Positions 2,229 to 22,301 of a stretch of DNA of 64,000 nucleotides are shown here, one piece after another. The translations under genes and the position numbers were made by a program. Within the stretch, counting starts at the first letter, position 1, and every line of letters begins with the position of its first letter. Source of the DNA: Runella sp. SP2 (lineage in GTDB: Bacteria > Bacteroidota > Bacteroidia > Cytophagales > Spirosomataceae); contig NZ_CP031030.1 in the NCBI RefSeq assembly GCF_003711225.1, forward strand, positions 2,976,001 to 3,040,000. The letters run 5' to 3'. The notes beneath the pieces were generated by a model that saw only the letters and a program-made list of their open reading frames with translations, ran no database searches and was not told where the DNA came from.

Positions 2229-3668
2229 ATGCCTCACACAGACTTTGACGCCATCGTAGTAGGTTCGGGACCCAATGGGCTCGCGGCCGCCATTACCCTC
2301 CAACAAGCAGGGCTTTCGGTATTGTTGGTCGAGGCCAAAAGCACCCTCGGGGGAGGTATGCGCACCGCCGAACTTACCTTGCCAGGCTTTCACCACGACA
2401 TCTGCTCGGCCATTCATCCGATGGCGTTGGCTTCGCCTTTTTTTAAATCATTGCCACTTCAAAACTATAGGCTTGAATTTGTGCACGCTCCCATTGCCGC
2501 CGCTCATCCGTTCGACAATGGCACGTCGGCCGTGCTTACTCGGCACTTAGAAGAGACTGCCGCGCTGCTGGGAAGTGATGAAACAACGTACAAAACGTTA
2601 ATCAAACCCCTCAAACAGCAATGGGACACGTTGATACCCGCCATTTTAGGGCCTTTACGCTTTCCCGAAAAACCCATCGAATTGGCTCAATTTGGGCTTT
2701 CGGCCTTGCAACCCGCTACTTGGTTAGCCAAAAAATTTAAGACGCCCTCGACGCAAGCTCTTTGGGCGGGCATGGCTGCCCATTCGATTTTGCCGCTTGA
2801 ACAACCTACCACTTCGGCCATTGGTTTGGTACTGATGACCGCCGCGCACCTCGGCGGTTGGCCCATTCCCAAGGGAGGGAGCCAACAAATTGCCAACGCG
2901 TTGGGGAGTTATTTTGAAGCGTTGGGCGGAAAAGTAGAGAAAAACTTTCAGGTGACCTCTTTGTCGCAATTACCCTCGTCGAAGGCGGTTTTATTTGATA
3001 CTACTCCGTGTCAGCTCCTCCAAATCGCTGGGCATACCTTTTCATCCATCTACCGTTGGCAGCTCGAAAAGTACCGCTACGGCATGGGGGTTTTCAAAGT
3101 AGATTGGGCATTGGATGGGCCTGTGCCATTTACGTCAAGGGATGCGCGATTGGCAGGGACACTTCATTTGGGAAATACAATCCAAGAAATAACCGCTTCT
3201 GAACGAGCCACTTGGAAAGGGGAACACCCCGAAAAACCTTTTGTGTTATTAGCGCAGCAAAGTTTGTTTGACAAAACACGCGCACCCGAGGGAAAACATA
3301 CCCTTTGGGGATATTGCCACGTCCCGAACGGTTCGACCAAAGACATGACCGAGGCGATTGAGAACCAAATTGAACGGTTTGCGCCAGGGTTTCGTGAACG
3401 AATTTTGGCAAAAAATACCTTCCACACTGCCCAATTGGAAGAATATAACGCCAATTACATCGGCGGAGACATCAACGGCGGCGCCGTCACGTTTGACCAA
3501 CTTTTTACGCGCCCTGCTTTACGTTGGTCACCTTATCGTACCTCCACCAAAGGTTTGTATCTTTGTTCTGCCTCTACCCCACCAGGCGGAGGTGTTCACG
3601 GAATGAGCGGATATCACGCCGCTAAACAAGCCCTTAAAGACATTTTTAACCTAACTATCTCCCAATGA
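2229..3668 (+). CDS. Phytoene-dehydrogenase-like FAD-dependent oxidoreductase
   Basis: A 479-residue flavoprotein of the CrtI/phytoene desaturase-like amine-oxidase superfamily (COG1233). The N-terminus has the Rossmann ADP-binding fold DAIVVGSGPNGLAAAITLQQ followed by VEAKSTLGGGMRTAEL, and the C-terminus has the flavin-contact region LYLCSASTPPGGGVHGMSGY. Family members act on hydrophobic polyenes or act as retinol saturase-like enzymes, but no carotenoid biosynthesis genes lie nearby, so the substrate is unknown. The stop codon overlaps the start of the next gene by four bases (ATGA), suggesting translational coupling to the S51 peptidase gene. Confidence 0.85.
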   Translation: MPHTDFDAIVVGSGPNGLAAAITLQQAGLSVLLVEAKSTLGGGMRTAELTLPGFHHDICSAIHPMALASPFFKSLPLQNYRLEFVHAPIAAAHPFDNGTSAVLTRHLEETAALLGSDETTYKTLIKPLKQQWDTLIPAILGPLRFPEKPIELAQFGLSALQPATWLAKKFKTPSTQALWAGMAAHSILPLEQPTTSAIGLVLMTAAHLGGWPIPKGGSQQIANALGSYFEALGGKVEKNFQVTSLSQLPSSKAVLFDTTPCQLLQIAGHTFSSIYRWQLEKYRYGMGVFKVDWALDGPVPFTSRDARLAGTLHLGNTIQEITASERATWKGEHPEKPFVLLAQQSLFDKTRAPEGKHTLWGYCHVPNGSTKDMTEAIENQIERFAPGFRERILAKNTFHTAQLEEYNANYIGGDINGGAVTFDQLFTRPALRWSPYRTSTKGLYLCSASTPPGGGVHGMSGYHAAKQALKDIFNLTISQ

Positions 3669-13881: not shown

Positions 13882-16800
13882 ATGAGCAACTTCTCCTTCA
13901 TACCCACTTCATGGGCTGATTTGGCCCAATCGCCGCAAGAAGCCGAACGGCAAGTATTGAATGCGCCCTTGGTGGCAGCTTTTCTCTGCCGCAAAAGCCT
14001 GGAAGAATGGGTACGCTGGATGTACGAACGCGACGCCGATTTGGTATTGCCTTATGACACATCGTTGAGTTCGCTCATGCACGCCCAAGGTTTTAAAAAC
14101 TTGGTAGCGCCCATACAGTTCAACCAAATCAACCTCATCCGTAAGCTCGGCAATACCGCCGTGCATACTTCGGCCAAAATCAAACCCGAAGAAGCCCTCT
14201 ATGCCTTGCGGTTGTTGCACGGCTTTATTGGTTGGGCGGTGCAGCTCTACCACGAAGAGCGCGTTTCCGTTCCCCGATTTGACGAAAGCCTCCTCTCAAA
14301 AAACAAAGAAAAAGATTTATACAAGCACGACCTTCAAGTACTAGAACGCAACTACCACGAGTCGCAGAGCAAACTCGCCAAATTGGAAGCCGAGCTGGCA
14401 AGCATCAAGGCCATCAAAGCGCAGAACCAAGCCTTTGTGGTGCCTCCCACCGAACCCAACGAAGCCCTTACCCGCAAACTCTACATTGATACCCTGCTGC
14501 GCGAAGCAGGCTGGGATCCGTATGGGTTCAATGTCCCCGAATACCCCGTTAAAGGAATGCCCCAAGGCCACGGCGATGCCAACGGCCACGGCTTTGCCGA
14601 TTACGTACTTTGGGGCGACGATGGCAAACCTCTGGCCGTCGTAGAAGCCAAACGCACCCAACGCGACCCCCGCGTGGGGCAGCACCAAGCCAAACTGTAT
14701 GCCGACTGCTTGGAAAAAGAATATAATCAACGTCCCGTTATTTTTTATTCCAATGGCTTCCAAACGTTCCTGTGGGACGATGTCAACTATCCCCCCCGCG
14801 AAGTGTTTGGGTTTTATACCAAAGACGAATTGCAGCTAATGGTGCAAAGGCGCAGCTCCCAAAAAACACTGGCCACCCAACCCATCAACAACGCCATCAC
14901 CGACCGCCCCTACCAACACGAGGCCATTCGGCGGGTAGCCGAAGCCTTGGATGGCAAACACCGCGAAGCCCTGCTCATTATGGCCACGGGCACGGGCAAA
15001 ACCAGGGTTGCGGCCTCCATAGTTGACTTACTGAGCAAAGCCAACTGGGCAAAACGCGTCTTGTTTTTGGCCGACAGAAACGCCTTGATTCATCAGGCCA
15101 AAATCAACCTGAACCAGTATTTGCCCCATCTGCCCGCCGTAGATTTGACCAAAGAGAAAGAAGACGAAAGCAGCCGACTTGTGTTTTCGACCTACCAAAC
15201 CATCATCCACATGATAGATGGCGAGGCCGACGGCAACAATCGTTTTTACGGCGTAGGGCACTTCGACGTCATTATTTTCGATGAAATCCACCGCAGCGTC
15301 TATAACCGCTACAAGCATATTTTCAAGTATTTCGACGGCATTCGCATTGGCCTCACCGCCACCCCCAAATCAGAAACCGACCGCGACACCTATGGGTTGT
15401 TTGACATGGAACCCAACAACCCCACTTTTGCCTACGAGCTGGAGCAGGCCGTCAACGATGGTTTTCTGGTACCACCCAAGGCCATTTCAGTCCCTATTAA
15501 ATTTCAGCGAAGCGGCATCAAATATGCCGACCTCAACGAAGAAGAAAAACGCGCCTACGAAGAACAATTCTCCGACCCCGTTACGGGGGCCTTTCCCGAC
15601 GAAATAGACGCCGCCGCTTTAAACAAATGGCTGTTTAATACCGACACGGTGGACAAAGTAATCGGGCATTTGATGGAACACGGCCTCAAAATAGAAGGAG
15701 GCGATAAGCTGGCCAAAACCATTGTGTTTGCCCGTTCGCATACCCATGCCAAGTTTATTGAAGAACGCTTCAACAAACAATACCCCGCCTACAGGGGCGA
15801 TTTTTTAAAAGTAATTGATTATCACGAAGAAAAACGTGACGACTTGCTCAACAAGTTTAAGGACAAAGCCAAAATGCCCCAAATAGCCGCGTCGGTAGAT
15901 ATGCTCGATACGGGCATTGATGTGCCCGAAGTCTGCAATTTGGTGTTTTTCAAACCCGTGCGCAGCAGTGCCAAGTTTTGGCAGATGATAGGCCGAGGCA
16001 CCCGCTTGTGCAAAGACTTGTTTGGGACAGGCCAAGACAAAAAAGAGTTTGTAATTTTCGACTTTTGCGAAAACTTCGAGTTTTTCAACGCCCATCCCAA
16101 AGGCAAAGAAGGGACAAATAGCAAATCGTTGAGCCAGCGATTGTTTGAACTGCGCTTGCGCTTGGCATTGGTACTGTTGGGTCAGGAAGAACCCGAATTG
16201 AAGGAATACGGTCAAACCCTCCTCGGCCAATTAATCAAGCAGACCCAAGCCTTAAACGGCGACAGTTTCGTGGTTCGTCAGCACTGGGCATTTGTCGAGA
16301 AGTACCGCGACCCCAATGCTTGGAACGCCCTCAGCGATTTGGACCACAAAGAACTCCGCGACCACATCGCGCCCTTGATGCTGGAAGCCGAGCAAGACGA
16401 ATTGGCTAAGCGCTTTGATGCCCTCATGCTCGACCTCCAGTTGAGTGTATTGAATGGAGAAAAAAAGCAAGCCACGCTGATTCAAAAAGTAGTGGCCACC
16501 GCAGGTAAGCTCAGCAAGAAAGCCAGCCTACCAGCCGTAGCCAAAAAAATGGACACCCTCCACCAAGTGCAGCAGAAAGTATTTTGGGAAGGAAGCACGA
16601 TTTTGGGAATTGAAAAAGTCCGTATTGAGCTGCGTGACATCATTCAATTTTGGGATTCGGAAAATACCCCCATCTATTTTACGATGTTTGAAGATGAGTT
16701 TACGGGTAAAGCGCACGAACATCAATTGGTGTATCATTTTAACGACTTGGATGCCTACAAACGCAAGGTAGAGCAGTACCTGAAAGAGCAAAGCACCCAT

Positions 16801-17217
16801 TTTGTTATCCATAAACTCCGCAACAACCTCCCTATCACCCAAGCAGAAGTAGAAAGTCTCGACCAACTATTGTTTGAACAAGGCAACTTAGGCACCAAAG
16901 CGGAGTTTACGAAAGCCTACGGCGAGCAACCGTTGGGGAGATTTATCCGCAGCATCGTTGGGTTAGACGTACAAGCGGCCAAGTTGGCTTTTGCCGAAAT
17001 ACTGAGCCATCAAACCTTCAATGCCCAGCAAATCAAGTTCATAGACACCATTATCAACTTCCTGACCGTGAAGGGAATGGTTGAACCCGCTATGCTTTTC
17101 GAGTCACCTTTTACGGATATTAATTCCAACGGAATTGTAGGTTTGTTTGATAATGCCGTAGCTACCAAAATTATCAGTTTACTCGAAACCATCAACCACA
17201 ATGCCGAAGCCGCCTAA
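13882..17217 (+). CDS. hsdR: Type I restriction enzyme, helicase/endonuclease subunit
   Basis: A 1111-residue HsdR. Residues ~5-120 resemble a DUF4145 domain. Residues ~150-300 contain the HsdR_N nuclease with ADYVLWGDDGKPLAVVEAK (Asp...E-x-K). The SF2 motor has Walker A ATGTGKT (~residue 370), DEIH (~467), GLTATPK and the arginine-finger motif QMIGRGTRL (~700). The C-terminal third is the EcoEI-type HsdR_C region. It translocates DNA and cleaves unmodified DNA away from the recognition site. All key motifs are intact, so restriction should be active. It is preceded by a 122-bp gap containing short ATCAGTGT-like repeats. Confidence 0.95.
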   Translation: MSNFSFIPTSWADLAQSPQEAERQVLNAPLVAAFLCRKSLEEWVRWMYERDADLVLPYDTSLSSLMHAQGFKNLVAPIQFNQINLIRKLGNTAVHTSAKIKPEEALYALRLLHGFIGWAVQLYHEERVSVPRFDESLLSKNKEKDLYKHDLQVLERNYHESQSKLAKLEAELASIKAIKAQNQAFVVPPTEPNEALTRKLYIDTLLREAGWDPYGFNVPEYPVKGMPQGHGDANGHGFADYVLWGDDGKPLAVVEAKRTQRDPRVGQHQAKLYADCLEKEYNQRPVIFYSNGFQTFLWDDVNYPPREVFGFYTKDELQLMVQRRSSQKTLATQPINNAITDRPYQHEAIRRVAEALDGKHREALLIMATGTGKTRVAASIVDLLSKANWAKRVLFLADRNALIHQAKINLNQYLPHLPAVDLTKEKEDESSRLVFSTYQTIIHMIDGEADGNNRFYGVGHFDVIIFDEIHRSVYNRYKHIFKYFDGIRIGLTATPKSETDRDTYGLFDMEPNNPTFAYELEQAVNDGFLVPPKAISVPIKFQRSGIKYADLNEEEKRAYEEQFSDPVTGAFPDEIDAAALNKWLFNTDTVDKVIGHLMEHGLKIEGGDKLAKTIVFARSHTHAKFIEERFNKQYPAYRGDFLKVIDYHEEKRDDLLNKFKDKAKMPQIAASVDMLDTGIDVPEVCNLVFFKPVRSSAKFWQMIGRGTRLCKDLFGTGQDKKEFVIFDFCENFEFFNAHPKGKEGTNSKSLSQRLFELRLRLALVLLGQEEPELKEYGQTLLGQLIKQTQALNGDSFVVRQHWAFVEKYRDPNAWNALSDLDHKELRDHIAPLMLEAEQDELAKRFDALMLDLQLSVLNGEKKQATLIQKVVATAGKLSKKASLPAVAKKMDTLHQVQQKVFWEGSTILGIEKVRIELRDIIQFWDSENTPIYFTMFEDEFTGKAHEHQLVYHFNDLDAYKRKVEQYLKEQSTHFVIHKLRNNLPITQAEVESLDQLLFEQGNLGTKAEFTKAYGEQPLGRFIRSIVGLDVQAAKLAFAEILSHQTFNAQQIKFIDTIINFLTVKGMVEPAMLFESPFTDINSNGIVGLFDNAVATKIISLLETINHNAEAA

Positions 17218-17292: not shown

Positions 17293-17330
17293 GTGGGCCC
17301 AGCAGGGCTCGAACCTGCGACCACCTGATT

Positions 17331-17998
17331 CACTTTCCTCTGGTTTCCCAAAGTAGTAGGACTATCTCACCACCCTTCCCAAATTAATTTAGGAGTCGGG
17401 TGAGGGGCGTTAGTAGAAGCTTATTGGTTGGTTTCCTCACTTCTTAGTCTCTGCACCTTCCAAGTTACTCTTAAACCATTTACTTGGCTTGGCTCAGGAT
17501 TACCATCGGCGCTACCCGTTAAGGCTTCCCTGAATTAACCCCTATTCCATCTAACAATCTCTTGTTAGCGGCACCGTCTAAAATTTTTTGAATATTTTTA
17601 ACACTAAGCTCTGGATTATGCTCTTCTGCATGGCAGTTGGAACACAGCAACAAACATTTTTTTGCTTCTTCTACAATATTCTCCCATTTTTTATTAGAAA
17701 GAATTCTAGCATCTAGTTTGAAGTGCTTCGTTGTAGAATCCAGATGATGAAAATGTAATGCCGCCAGATTTGCGTTATAACCACATTTGCTACATTTTCC
17801 TCCAAACATTTGTACTAATTTCATTTTTCGTGAAATTGATCTAACTGTTTGTGAGTGATATGTATTTGTTTGCTTTTTTACCTTGTAATAGTGGTCTTTT
17901 TGCTTGCATGTATTACTACAGTACTTTTGCTTTTGACCATAAATTTCAGTTTGGCAAACAACACAAACGCGATTCATTAATTCAAAGAACTTTAATTG
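17331..17998 (-). ncRNA. Group I self-splicing intron in the tRNA anticodon loop (668 nt)
   Basis: Defined by tRNA continuity: the 5' exon ends in T and the intron ends in G, both expected for group I. Core pairings are visible (minus strand): P2 CTAACAA/TTGTTAG with GAGA loop (17568-17551), P3 AGGGG (17543-17539)/CCCCT (17407-17403), P4 TCAGG (17533-17529)/CCTGA (17498-17494), P6 CCAAGT/ACTTGG (17487-17460), P7 GACTA (17449-17445)/TAGTC (17364-17360), P7.1 AGAAG/CTTCT, P8 CACCC/GGGTG, and P9 CTTTGG-GAAA-CCAGAG (17353-17338). The conserved strings CCTGAGCCAAGCC, GTGCAGAGACTA and ATAGTCC are typical. A P1 partner GTG at 17574-17572 could pair with the exon's CAT. Confidence 0.93.
17519..17977 (-). 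CDS. Intron-encoded zinc-finger HNH homing endonuclease
   Basis: A 152-residue protein encoded inside the group I intron. Cys5, Cys8, Cys20 and Cys24 form an N-terminal zinc finger. An HNH nuclease domain follows with Cys62/Cys65, ALHFHHLD (His77/His78), LLCSNCHAEEH (Cys112, Asn114, Cys115, His120). It presumably cuts intron-less tRNA alleles to spread the intron. It starts 21 nt into the intron, and its last ~17 codons and TAA stop are read from P2, P3 and the 5' strand of P4, so protein and ribozyme share sequence. The gene is clearly AT-richer than its surroundings. Maturase activity is possible but not shown. Confidence 0.88.
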   Translation of the reverse strand: MNRVCVVCQTEIYGQKQKYCSNTCKQKDHYYKVKKQTNTYHSQTVRSISRKMKLVQMFGGKCSKCGYNANLAALHFHHLDSTTKHFKLDARILSNKKWENIVEEAKKCLLLCSNCHAEEHNPELSVKNIQKILDGAANKRLLDGIGVNSGKP

Positions 17999-18065
17999 AT
18001 GAGTCAGATGCTCTAACCGACTGAGCTATGGGCCCGAAAAATACCTATTCGATATTTTGTGGGTG

Positions 18066-20575: not shown

Positions 20576-20654
20576 TACACAAAAGAGAAACCTGCCACAC
20601 ATTTAGGTATTTTTTCTTAGCTTAGCAGCCTTAAACCTATGATGATTTACTTTT

Positions 20655-22301
20655 ATGGCAAAAAAACTTCCTGCGGTGTACGCACATCCGTACGCTTTCG
20701 ACGCTCGTTTTAAAAAATCTGCGGTCTATTTTTCAATGGAATTTGCCATTGACCAAGCCCTAAAAACGTATTCGGGTGGCTTGGGCTTTTTGGCGGGTTC
20801 TCACATGAAAAGTGCCCACGATTTAAAACAAAATCTTATTGGAGTCGGAATGTTGTGGAAATTTGGGTATTACGACCAAATGCGCAATTCTGACAATAGC
20901 ATGATGCCTCAGTTTCGGGAAAAAATGTACAGTTTTCTGAAAGATACAGGCATCCGCTTCCAAATTACGATTGCCAATAAGCCCGTGTGGGTAGCGGCCT
21001 ACTTTCTCGACCCAACAACTTTTGGGACGGTTCCGATGTTTTTCTTGACTACCGATACCGACGGCAACGACACTTGGGCGCGTCAAATTTCGTATCGGTT
21101 GTACGACTCCGACCCAGCCATCAAAGTAATGCAGTGCATGGTATTGGGAATTGGAGGGGCAAAGTTCTTGGATGAACTTGGCTACGACCCCGACATTTAC
21201 CACCTGAACGAAGCCCACGCGGTATCGTCGGTTTTTTATATGTACCAAAAGTTGCGCAAAAAAGAAGCCGTTCAAAAGAAGTTTGTGTTCACTACGCACA
21301 CGCCCGAGGAAGCAGGTAATGAAAAACATGACATTCACTTTTTGAACGACCTTAGCTTTTTTGCAGGTCTTAAATTGGACGAAGTTCGCAAGATTACGGG
21401 TATTACCGACAATGTATTTAATCACTCTTTGGCCGCACTTCGGCTGAGCCACCAAGCCAATGCCGTATCAAAACTTCACGGGAAAGTGTCGCGGCAGATG
21501 TGGGGATGGGCCAAAGATATTTGTGACATTACCCACGTAACCAACTCCCAACACAAAGCCTCTTGGGCGGATGCTGACTTGGAAAAAGCCCGTGAAAAAG
21601 GTGATTTAAAAGCCCTCGAAAAGCGTAAAAAAGCGCTAAAAGCTCAACTCTTTAAAACTGTCGCCGACCAAGCGGGGAAACTTTTTGACCCGAATGTGCT
21701 TACTATCGTTTGGGCGAGACGCTTTGCAGGGTATAAACGTCCCGATTTACTCACCCGCGACCAAGAACGCTTTGACCGAATTATGCGTAATAAAGACCTC
21801 CCGATTCAGTTTATCTGGGCAGGGAAGCCTTACCCTAAAGACGAAGGCGCTATTCAGACGTTTAACCATTTGTATTACCTCAGTCACCTCTACCCCAACA
21901 TGGCGGTGCTGACGGGCTACGAATTGGCCTTGTCGAAGCAACTCAAGGAAGGCTCAGACGTGTGGCTCAATACGCCCGTGGTGACGCGCGAAGCTTCGGG
22001 TACGAGCGGAATGACAGCAGCGATGAACGCCAGTCTCAACTTTTCAACCTACGACGGCTGGGTGTGTGAATTTTCTCGCCACGGCGAAAATTCATTTATC
22101 GTTCCCGTGGCATCTGACCATAACCGCGATGGAGAAGATATTTCTAACATGCTTGATATGCTCGAAAACGAGATTTTGCCGCTTTATTACCAACGCCCCA
22201 AAGATTGGTACAAAACCGTCCTGACAAGCATGAATGAAGTAGGCGACTTCTTTAACTCTGACCGCATGGCAGCGGAGTATTACGAGAAGGTTTATAAATA
22301 A
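20655..22301 (+). CDS. Alpha-glucan family phosphorylase (GT35), PLP lysine replaced
   Basis: A 548-residue short-form GT35 phosphorylase: PAVYAHPYAFDARFKKSAVYFSMEFAIDQ at the N-terminus (read directly), LNEAHAVSS, WARRFAGYKRPDLL, and EASGTSGMTAAMNASLNF near the C-terminus. Phosphorylases split alpha-1,4-glucans with phosphate using pyridoxal phosphate bound to a lysine in SGMK(A/F). Here that position is Thr454 (codon ACA at 22014-22016). The protein may therefore be inactive as a phosphorylase, or belong to a subfamily with another mechanism or role. The rest of the domain is intact. Monocistronic, with a hairpin terminator. Confidence 0.87.
   Translation: MAKKLPAVYAHPYAFDARFKKSAVYFSMEFAIDQALKTYSGGLGFLAGSHMKSAHDLKQNLIGVGMLWKFGYYDQMRNSDNSMMPQFREKMYSFLKDTGIRFQITIANKPVWVAAYFLDPTTFGTVPMFFLTTDTDGNDTWARQISYRLYDSDPAIKVMQCMVLGIGGAKFLDELGYDPDIYHLNEAHAVSSVFYMYQKLRKKEAVQKKFVFTTHTPEEAGNEKHDIHFLNDLSFFAGLKLDEVRKITGITDNVFNHSLAALRLSHQANAVSKLHGKVSRQMWGWAKDICDITHVTNSQHKASWADADLEKAREKGDLKALEKRKKALKAQLFKTVADQAGKLFDPNVLTIVWARRFAGYKRPDLLTRDQERFDRIMRNKDLPIQFIWAGKPYPKDEGAIQTFNHLYYLSHLYPNMAVLTGYELALSKQLKEGSDVWLNTPVVTREASGTSGMTAAMNASLNFSTYDGWVCEFSRHGENSFIVPVASDHNRDGEDISNMLDMLENEILPLYYQRPKDWYKTVLTSMNEVGDFFNSDRMAAEYYEKVYK

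Follow-up and report, generated by a model that had tools for sequence, protein, structure and literature searches.

Introduction

The group I intron of Azoarcus reportedly lies in a tRNA-Ile gene with the anticodon CAU, is inserted after the anticodon, uses the guide GUG, carries no open reading frame (ORF) and is about 205 nt long. In a second known system, the cyanobacterial tRNA-fMet intron is associated with the endonuclease I-Ssp6803I, a PD-(D/E)XK enzyme that we take to be the protein deposited as PDB entry 2ost ('Putative endonuclease'). Crystal structures of the Azoarcus pre-tRNA-Ile group I intron are mentioned in a 2014 review of bacterial group I introns (PMC3984707), in which endonuclease ORFs overlapping the group I core also appear as a known arrangement. 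In collaborative homing, described for phages in that review and in PMC10448857, a free-standing endonuclease targets an intron site. Endonucleases are also known from phage tRNA arrays: the SegB enzymes of T4 and T6 make their cuts inside tRNA genes of phages (PMC13096335), and HNH genes are found in mycobacteriophage tRNA clusters (PMC6409571). The union of an endonuclease gene with a self-splicing intron is a long-standing question.

The locus considered here lies in a 64-kb stretch of Runella DNA, referred to below as the window. Its intron, which we presume to be akin to that of Azoarcus and to subgroup IC3, shares with it a tRNA-Ile with CAU, insertion after the anticodon and the guide; it differs in holding an HNH gene in an extended P1, in a P7.1-like insert that we take to be unlike Azoarcus, and in its Bacteroidota host. 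The I-Ssp6803I case, too, is a group I intron that carries an endonuclease and splits a tRNA gene with the anticodon CAU, and a close homologue of 2ost (E 7.1e-59) is encoded by a Bacteroidota tRNA-fMet intron (L149:1101-1550); that enzyme, however, is of PD-(D/E)XK type and tied to an initiator tRNA, whereas the enzyme of the window is of HNH type and tied to tRNA-Ile2. A free-standing HNH gene beside a tRNA-Ile2 gene with an ORF-less intron (L105, below) recalls collaborative homing, but it concerns a bacterial chromosome and a tRNA gene, while the cases described in the available text of PMC3984707 and PMC10448857 are phage genes. SegB and the mycobacteriophage HNH proteins are similar in being homing endonucleases of phage tRNA arrays; SegB, however, is a GIY-YIG enzyme, and the available text of PMC13096335 and PMC6409571 mentions no anticodon-specific link and no intron.

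Results and Discussion

The intron and its ribozyme core

On sequence grounds, positions 17331-17998(-) of the window are a group I intron that splits a tRNA-Ile(CAU) gene after its anticodon (Table 1). The joined exons, 17999-18035 and 17294-17330, form a 74-nt cloverleaf with the anticodon loop CU-CAU-AA. A U precedes the 5' splice site and the last intron base is a G, as is usual for group I introns, and in duplex prediction the internal guide GGUG pairs with CAU/C across the 5' splice site (marked by the slash). A preliminary description of the window had proposed a group I intron with these coordinates and splice sites in a CAT-anticodon tRNA; the cloverleaf, the bases at the two splice sites and the guide pairing bear out the boundaries, and the comparison with Rfam that it had suggested agrees as to the class. 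RF00028 matched 17337-17590(-) with 67 bits, above its cut-off of 50, over model positions 1-253 of 253 (E 8.3e-15), and this was the sole Rfam match above a family cut-off in the window.

Table 1 Features of the split tRNA gene, its intron and the intron-encoded ORF (window coordinates).
Feature	Position	Strand	Basis
tRNA-Ile2 5' exon, 37 nt, ends ...GACTCAT	17999..18035	-	ARAGORN with introns; intact orthologues in 4/13 Runella genomes
Group I intron, 668 nt	17331..17998	-	RF00028, 67 bits; aligned with 11 other tRNA-Ile2 introns
Predicted extended P1, 5' strand, intron nt 1-19; pairing also takes exon CAU	17980..17998	-	Duplex prediction with controls
Probable HNH endonuclease gene, 152 aa, P1 loop	17519..17977	-	PHROGs HNH families; dN/dS
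Predicted extended P1, 3' strand; includes guide GGUG 17572-17575	17572..17593	-	Duplex prediction, alignment
Ribozyme core, IGS to intron 3' end	17331..17575	-	RF00028 match, folding, covariation
P2 hairpin	17551..17568	-	Compensatory change at 7/7 pairs
tRNA-Ile2 3' exon, 37 nt, begins AATCAGG	17294..17330	-	ARAGORN with introns; intact orthologues

The P2-P9 core makes up the last 245 nt of the intron; the preceding 423 nt consist of P1 and of its loop, in which the HNH gene lies, and the guide (17575-17572) starts at intron nt 424. Compensatory changes were found at 23 of the 42 predicted nested core pairs among 14 sequences; P7 crosses P3 and is outside the nested prediction. A chance fold is ruled out by this covariation together with the E-value of RF00028. 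The exon sequence at the junction, the core and the guide are conserved in 12/12 aligned tRNA-Ile2 introns.

The HNH gene within P1

At its 3' end the HNH gene overlaps the 3' strand of P1, the IGS, P2 and the 5' strands of P3 and P4. Its stop codon falls in the P5 region, as it does in L049 and L103, while in L051, L055 and L102 the stop is at about P2 and in L065 it lies between the two. With the HNH frame running into the core, translation of the protein and splicing probably compete for one transcript. Five of the 12 tRNA-Ile2 introns (L048, L054, L057, L058, L060) are ORF-less and have a short P1 hairpin in this position, and two hold damaged ORFs, with a stop in L047 and a deletion in L050.

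A long P1 is predicted to close the HNH ORF in all eight ORF-bearing or ORF-damaged introns that were folded (L103 was not among them). In ORF-bearing introns, roughly the first 19 intron nt can form a helix with some 22 nt that precede and include the guide. The predicted energies of this duplex in seven introns were -11.4 to -24.1 kcal/mol (mean -16.7), as against a mean of -11.6 and a best value of -21.6 kcal/mol when strands were swapped between introns, and the observed energy was reached by 0-15 of 500 base shuffles in each of the seven; the eighth intron, L050, folded at -18.3 kcal/mol and was outside these controls.

The encoded protein is probably a DNA-cutting enzyme. Its best match among the HNH families of PHROGs had an E-value of 1.1e-19, in agreement with the HNH gene that the preliminary description had placed in the intron; the Pfam family HNH (PF01844) scored 10.3 bits, below its cut-off of 21.4, so that the assignment rests on PHROGs and the motif. 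NCBIfam offered no family for the protein, and sequence searches of solved structures (PDB) gave no match to it. In nine related sequences the HNH signature and the zinc-binding cysteines are conserved, with FHH and NCHAExHN invariant, as are the eight paired cysteines at positions 5, 8, 20, 24, 62, 65, 112 and 115. An AlphaFold model (mean pLDDT 82.7) is confident over residues ~51-130. None of its 58 Foldseek matches in the PDB reached E<=0.001; those ranked highest are nucleases of HNH or His-Me type, namely T4 endonuclease VII, the Cas9 HNH domain, Cap5 and an HNH nickase, all with E>0.1. The closest named relatives are those of Runella limosa (86%) and R. zeae (82%); the nearest named ones belong to Runella and Emticicia, at this type of locus, which identifies the host as Bacteroidota. 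Six other open HNH ORFs have 58-86% protein identity to that of the window. As judged from dN/dS, which is 0.08-0.21 in 14 of the 21 pairs of these seven open ORFs (dS is saturated in the other 7), the HNH relatives are under purifying selection.

Alleles at the Runella locus

The tRNA-Ile2 gene is split in nine of 13 Runella genomes and intact in four, the latter with five copies, two of them in G164; G169 has one further partial match (C188:540-590). Among the split genomes, the ORF is open in G000, G163 and G172, has an internal deletion in G171 and is absent from the introns of G161, G162, G167, G168 and G170. A 551-aa gene (window 20646-22298) is found near the split genes L048, L050, L051, L055, L057, L058 and L060 and near the intact genes L107, L108, L109 and L119; it is not near L110, the second G164 copy, and L054 has in common with the window's own genome the two direct neighbours instead of this gene. 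Empty orthologous sites, as are looked for in the case of a mobile intron, are thus present in Runella. In a tree of rpoB from 12 of the 13 genomes (none was matched in G168, and the match in G167 was partial), species with and without the intron are intermixed within one clade, in the order G165 empty, G170 intron, G164 empty, G166 empty and G161 intron (support 100/100, inner forks 83-100).

By eye, G161 and G170 have the upstream flank and 5' exon of the empties G164 and G166, and a 3' exon of the intron-bearing type, with five differences in 37 nt from the empties. The downstream flank of G170 resembles those of G166 and of the second G164 copy, and that of G161 is unlike its empty relatives. 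This looks like a short co-conversion tract, which would be bounded on both sides only in G170 and on the 5' side only in G161. All five intron-free Runella copies (L107, L108, L109, L110, L119) have the T-loop ATCGT instead of TTCGA. As intronless tRNA-Ile2 genes of other genera have TTCGA or TTCAA, like the intron-bearing Runella genes (24 of 26 fetched loci were readable), the 3' exon of the Runella empties appears to be the derived one. It should be considered that the replacement of alleles may have been either gain by homing or conversion with intron loss. The ATCGT T-loop might, hypothetically, block the HNH enzyme.

Comparison of single genomes adds to this picture. Between G000 and G163, a neighbouring gene has 98% protein identity over 196 aa, as against 86% for the HNH protein (dS 0.71), and the intron cores are 88% identical; the cores of G000 and G162 are 98% identical and their ORF states are opposite. 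The insert thus turns over faster than its surroundings.

We consider it likely that the single tRNA-Ile2(CAU) gene carries a mobile group I intron that splices, and that its HNH protein, a member of a family of phage tRNA arrays, cuts intronless tRNA-Ile2 genes, whereupon repair copies the intron and a short stretch of the 3' exon. The precursor would fold so that P1 sets CAU/C against GGUG; guanosine would attack after the U, ligation of the exons would follow, and TilS would modify the mature tRNA, which would then read AUA. The HNH protein would be made from the unspliced precursor.

It is rather unlikely that the intron splices but moves no more, with HNH as a relic and the Runella scatter as ordinary recombination and loss at a tRNA locus. 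Such an account draws on the frequency of ORF-less, shortened and stop-containing versions among the 12 introns, on the near-identical cores of G000 and G162 despite their opposite ORF states, and on the possibility that the derived 3' exon common to the empties spread on its own. It is opposed by the seven ORFs that stay open with low dN/dS at their degree of divergence, and by the HNH proteins of G000 and G163, which differ more than the neighbouring gene does.

Identity of the tRNA and AUA decoding

The preliminary description did not say which CAT tRNA is split; we read the gene as being of the tRNA-Ile2 (lysidine) type, given its CAU anticodon, its elongator type and the presence of a gene for TilS (lysidine synthetase) in the genome. 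The choice of Ile2 rather than Met follows the sequence type and a separate CAT gene that we read as elongator Met. For the host genome and ESSENTIALITY (7.6 Mb, 4 contigs, rated 99.98% complete), a search with the joined exons returned the two halves and weaker partial matches, of which tRNA-Asn was the best (90% over positions 7-67). No second intact tRNA-Ile2 copy was found in this search, and so the other intact copy that the preliminary description had named as an objection did not appear. The single-copy statement is based on the joined-exon search, as an RF00005 search, in which 150 of 452 candidates were scored, falls short of a complete inventory. In the six-frame ORFs of the window with a length of at least 300 aa, possibly including shadow ORFs, 99 of the 825 Ile codons are AUA. 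Since the split gene is the only copy found, TilS is encoded and AUA is used, splicing should be needed for AUA decoding.

It is very improbable that the locus is a dead tRNA gene and that another tRNA reads AUA, making splicing irrelevant. The genome does hold other, separate CAT tRNAs, from which such a reader might come; by our reading three are of Met type (an elongator and two initiators) and one is an odd gene (C1:951589-951660). None of them, however, was recovered as an Ile2 gene by similarity, the exon junction, core and guide are kept in every one of the introns aligned, and TilS is there.

Run without introns, ARAGORN found no tRNA in the window and overlooks the split gene; run with introns, a search that the preliminary description had proposed, it returned the same 668-nt intron with a boundary shifted by 2 nt and a wrong name, Gln(CTG). 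It is highly improbable that ARAGORN is right and that the gene is a tRNA-Gln(CUG) with an intron 2 nt earlier. The name Gln(ctg), which the program also gives to all 12 Ile2 introns of the family survey, speaks for this reading, but the shifted 5' site would follow a C and lose its pairing with the guide, four Runella genomes carry intact CAT tRNAs as orthologues at this locus, and only the boundary with U before the 5' site, G at the intron end and a closed anticodon stem gives CAT. The reading was rejected as a boundary slip.

Other observations concern tRNAs of the same genome and the neighbourhood. An unusual additional CAT-anticodon tRNA is found at L030:40-112 (AGTGGTGTAGGGAAG...). Two odd copies of tRNA-Val(TAC) with an insert in the T-arm (L032:634-725 and 777-868) lie downstream of three normal copies. 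A gene for a type I restriction R-like helicase (window 13882-17217), for which all NCBIfam matches were below cut-off, adjoins the tRNA.

Introns and HNH genes in related genomes

RF00028 matched 43 of 222 genomes of the family (33 above cut-off) and 30 of 395 genomes of a phylum sample (24 above cut-off), the latter including four genomes of the family set. The 54 matches in the family were assigned, by ARAGORN and the rule of U before the 5' site and G at the intron end, with naming by reading, to tRNA-Ile2 (12), tRNA-fMet (14; initiator, after U33), tRNA-Leu(UAA) (22) and tRNA-Arg(UCU) (5), with one (L098, 26.5 bits) left unassigned. Many members of the family would thus depend on ribozyme splicing for a tRNA, and G212 has three RF00028 introns. 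In the phylum sample, introns were also found, by reading, in tRNA-Asn(GUU) (L134, L136), with some loci left unassigned. The window's own genome has a second intron of 742 nt in tRNA-Leu(UAA) (L034:1069-1897; C1 ~199468-200296), the HNH ORF of which belongs to another family and, in comparison with L087, stops early, at a TGA. ORFs of LAGLIDADG-like type, as judged by eye from the motif, were seen at L138:1767-2216 and L156:1527-1946, RF00028 loci for which ARAGORN called no tRNA and which are possibly rRNA introns.

The HNH family of the window was found at E<=1e-8 in 11 of the 222 family genomes. Seven of these genes belong to tRNA-Ile2 introns, where one is deleted and another has a stop; three are in Arg(UCU) introns, in antisense orientation, and one lies in an array of intact tRNAs. 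The tRNA-Arg(UCU) introns of L084, L095 and L096 hold an antisense HNH gene of this family. Among named genomes, all eight confirmed HNH loci adjoin an intron-bearing CAU tRNA (boundaries by reading). P1 holds the gene in sense orientation in the genomes of two Runella, an Emticicia, a member of the Saprospiraceae and a member of the Bacteroidia; in a Peregrinibacterium (L104) the gene is antisense and its intron follows U33. In two Gammaproteobacteria (L105, L106) it stands outside the tRNA, upstream and divergent, the tRNA intron being ORF-less. The L105 gene (2050-2893) has an open frame about 110 nt from tRNA-Ile2, that of L106 is a 25-aa remnant, and both adjoin, by eye, the apparent end of a sigma-factor gene.

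The preliminary description had suggested that the case may be undescribed. It is no lone case, being common in the family; as to the literature, titles and beginnings of abstracts of open-licence PMC papers (subscription papers are mostly outside) revealed no paper on such Bacteroidota tRNA introns, 'Bacteroid', 'Cytophag' and 'HNH' are absent from the main text of the 2014 review (PMC3984707), and neither 'Bacteroid' nor 'HNH' occurs in the available text of a 2025 group I intron database paper (PMC11835236). As far as this search reaches, the novelty lies in the group of hosts and the frequency of the introns, in the position of the HNH gene within P1, in the range of allele states found in a single genus and in the anticodon-matched link between the endonucleases of phages and introns. 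The intron itself is of a known kind, and its tRNA site is presumably that of Azoarcus.

The HNH family in phages and the anticodon match

Matches to the HNH protein were found in 295 phage records; among the 40 records listed, 10 had an annotated tRNA under the match. The HNH gene overlaps tRNA-Asn(GTT) in phage S-WAM2 and a tRNA-Ile in phage Felix O1, while phage S-SRM01, a counter-example, has no annotated tRNA within 800 nt. A viral set was made of the best 80 of 294, with 66 distinct loci, of which 60 contain intact tRNAs; 49 have a tRNA within 150 nt of, or overlapping, the HNH gene, and 17 have none within 150 nt. It should be noted that random placement in these loci puts 13% within 150 nt and a further 33% in overlap, so that adjacency inside the arrays is only moderately above chance. 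Location in arrays contrasts with an HK97-type HNH control, in which 0 of 67 distinct loci have any tRNA, a weak control because its members are 89-100% identical relatives of one phage protein. The HNH family of the Leu(UAA) introns, initially meant as the negative control, had proved positive for another tRNA and was replaced by the HK97 type.

An HNH tree was built from 64 viral and 13 bacterial proteins (L261 and L289 were dropped beforehand). This tree has few columns and long branches, and its CAU label lumps Met, fMet and Ile2, which should be considered when referring to the results below. With 16 rows without a near tRNA dropped, 61 rows with 15 types of anticodon label were left, and the labels change 21 times on the tree, as against a mean of 38.1 and a minimum of 33 in 500 shuffles. 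Phage rows alone likewise show 21 changes, versus 30.4 shuffled (minimum 26), a signal that could come in part from related phages sharing arrays. The bacterial rows are the stronger test: adding all 13 costs 0 extra changes, and when the three intron labels were redrawn 2000 times, 11 draws did as well.

The Arg(UCU) group consists of three intron rows and three phage rows beside Arg(UCU) and no others (SH-aLRT 97). A CAU group of 23 (SH-aLRT 85) holds all CAU-associated bacterial rows with phage rows beside CAU tRNAs, as well as five phage rows next to tRNAs of other kinds (two Lys, and one each of Gly, Arg and Ile) and some with none. The Asn-intron row groups with L277, beside Asn(GUU), and with L258, without a near tRNA (92), within a mixed cluster of 43 rows. 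For the HNH family of the Leu(UAA) introns, 35 of 65 distinct viral loci (best 80 of at least 506) have a tRNA at <=150 nt, which is Leu(UAA) in 30, as against 40% for any tRNA and 19% for Leu(UAA) by random placement; the tree-label test gave 5 changes versus 4.97 shuffled and is uninformative because nearly all labels are TAA. The HNH proteins of tRNA(CAU), Arg(UCU) and Asn(GUU) introns thus appear to group, with exceptions, with phage HNH proteins beside tRNAs of the same anticodon, and a second HNH family seems to do likewise for Leu(UAA).

This pattern suggests that the HNH enzyme started out as a free homing endonuclease of tRNA genes and was later taken up by an intron located at its target, probably because enzyme and intron were by then using one and the same site. 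A step of this kind has been proposed for collaborative homing (PMC3984707, PMC10448857), the latter source giving the reverse order as an alternative, and at tRNA-Ile2 either the enzyme or the intron may have arrived first. Within this one enzyme family, some members are free-standing next to tRNAs, some adjoin an intron-bearing tRNA and others are intron-internal; the tRNA types of phages and bacteria tend to match. More tentatively, with somewhat less than even confidence, we propose that HNH lineages are dedicated to single tRNA isoacceptors and are common to phage arrays, where they are free-standing, and tRNA introns, where they lie in the P1 loop, antisense or just outside; phages would be the reservoir of the mobility enzyme, and the Runella ATCGT alleles may resist cutting. 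The anticodon-matched link between phage and intron endonucleases, which concerns four tRNA genes, is the part most worth testing.

Fifteen viral HNH genes that ARAGORN called within intron-split tRNAs were left uncounted; of L310, L311, L317, L335 and L344, only L344 scored above the RF00028 cut-off. RF00028 matches in tRNA regions of viral contigs are found at L344:1224-1470 and 2926-3128 and at L221:2110-2326(-).
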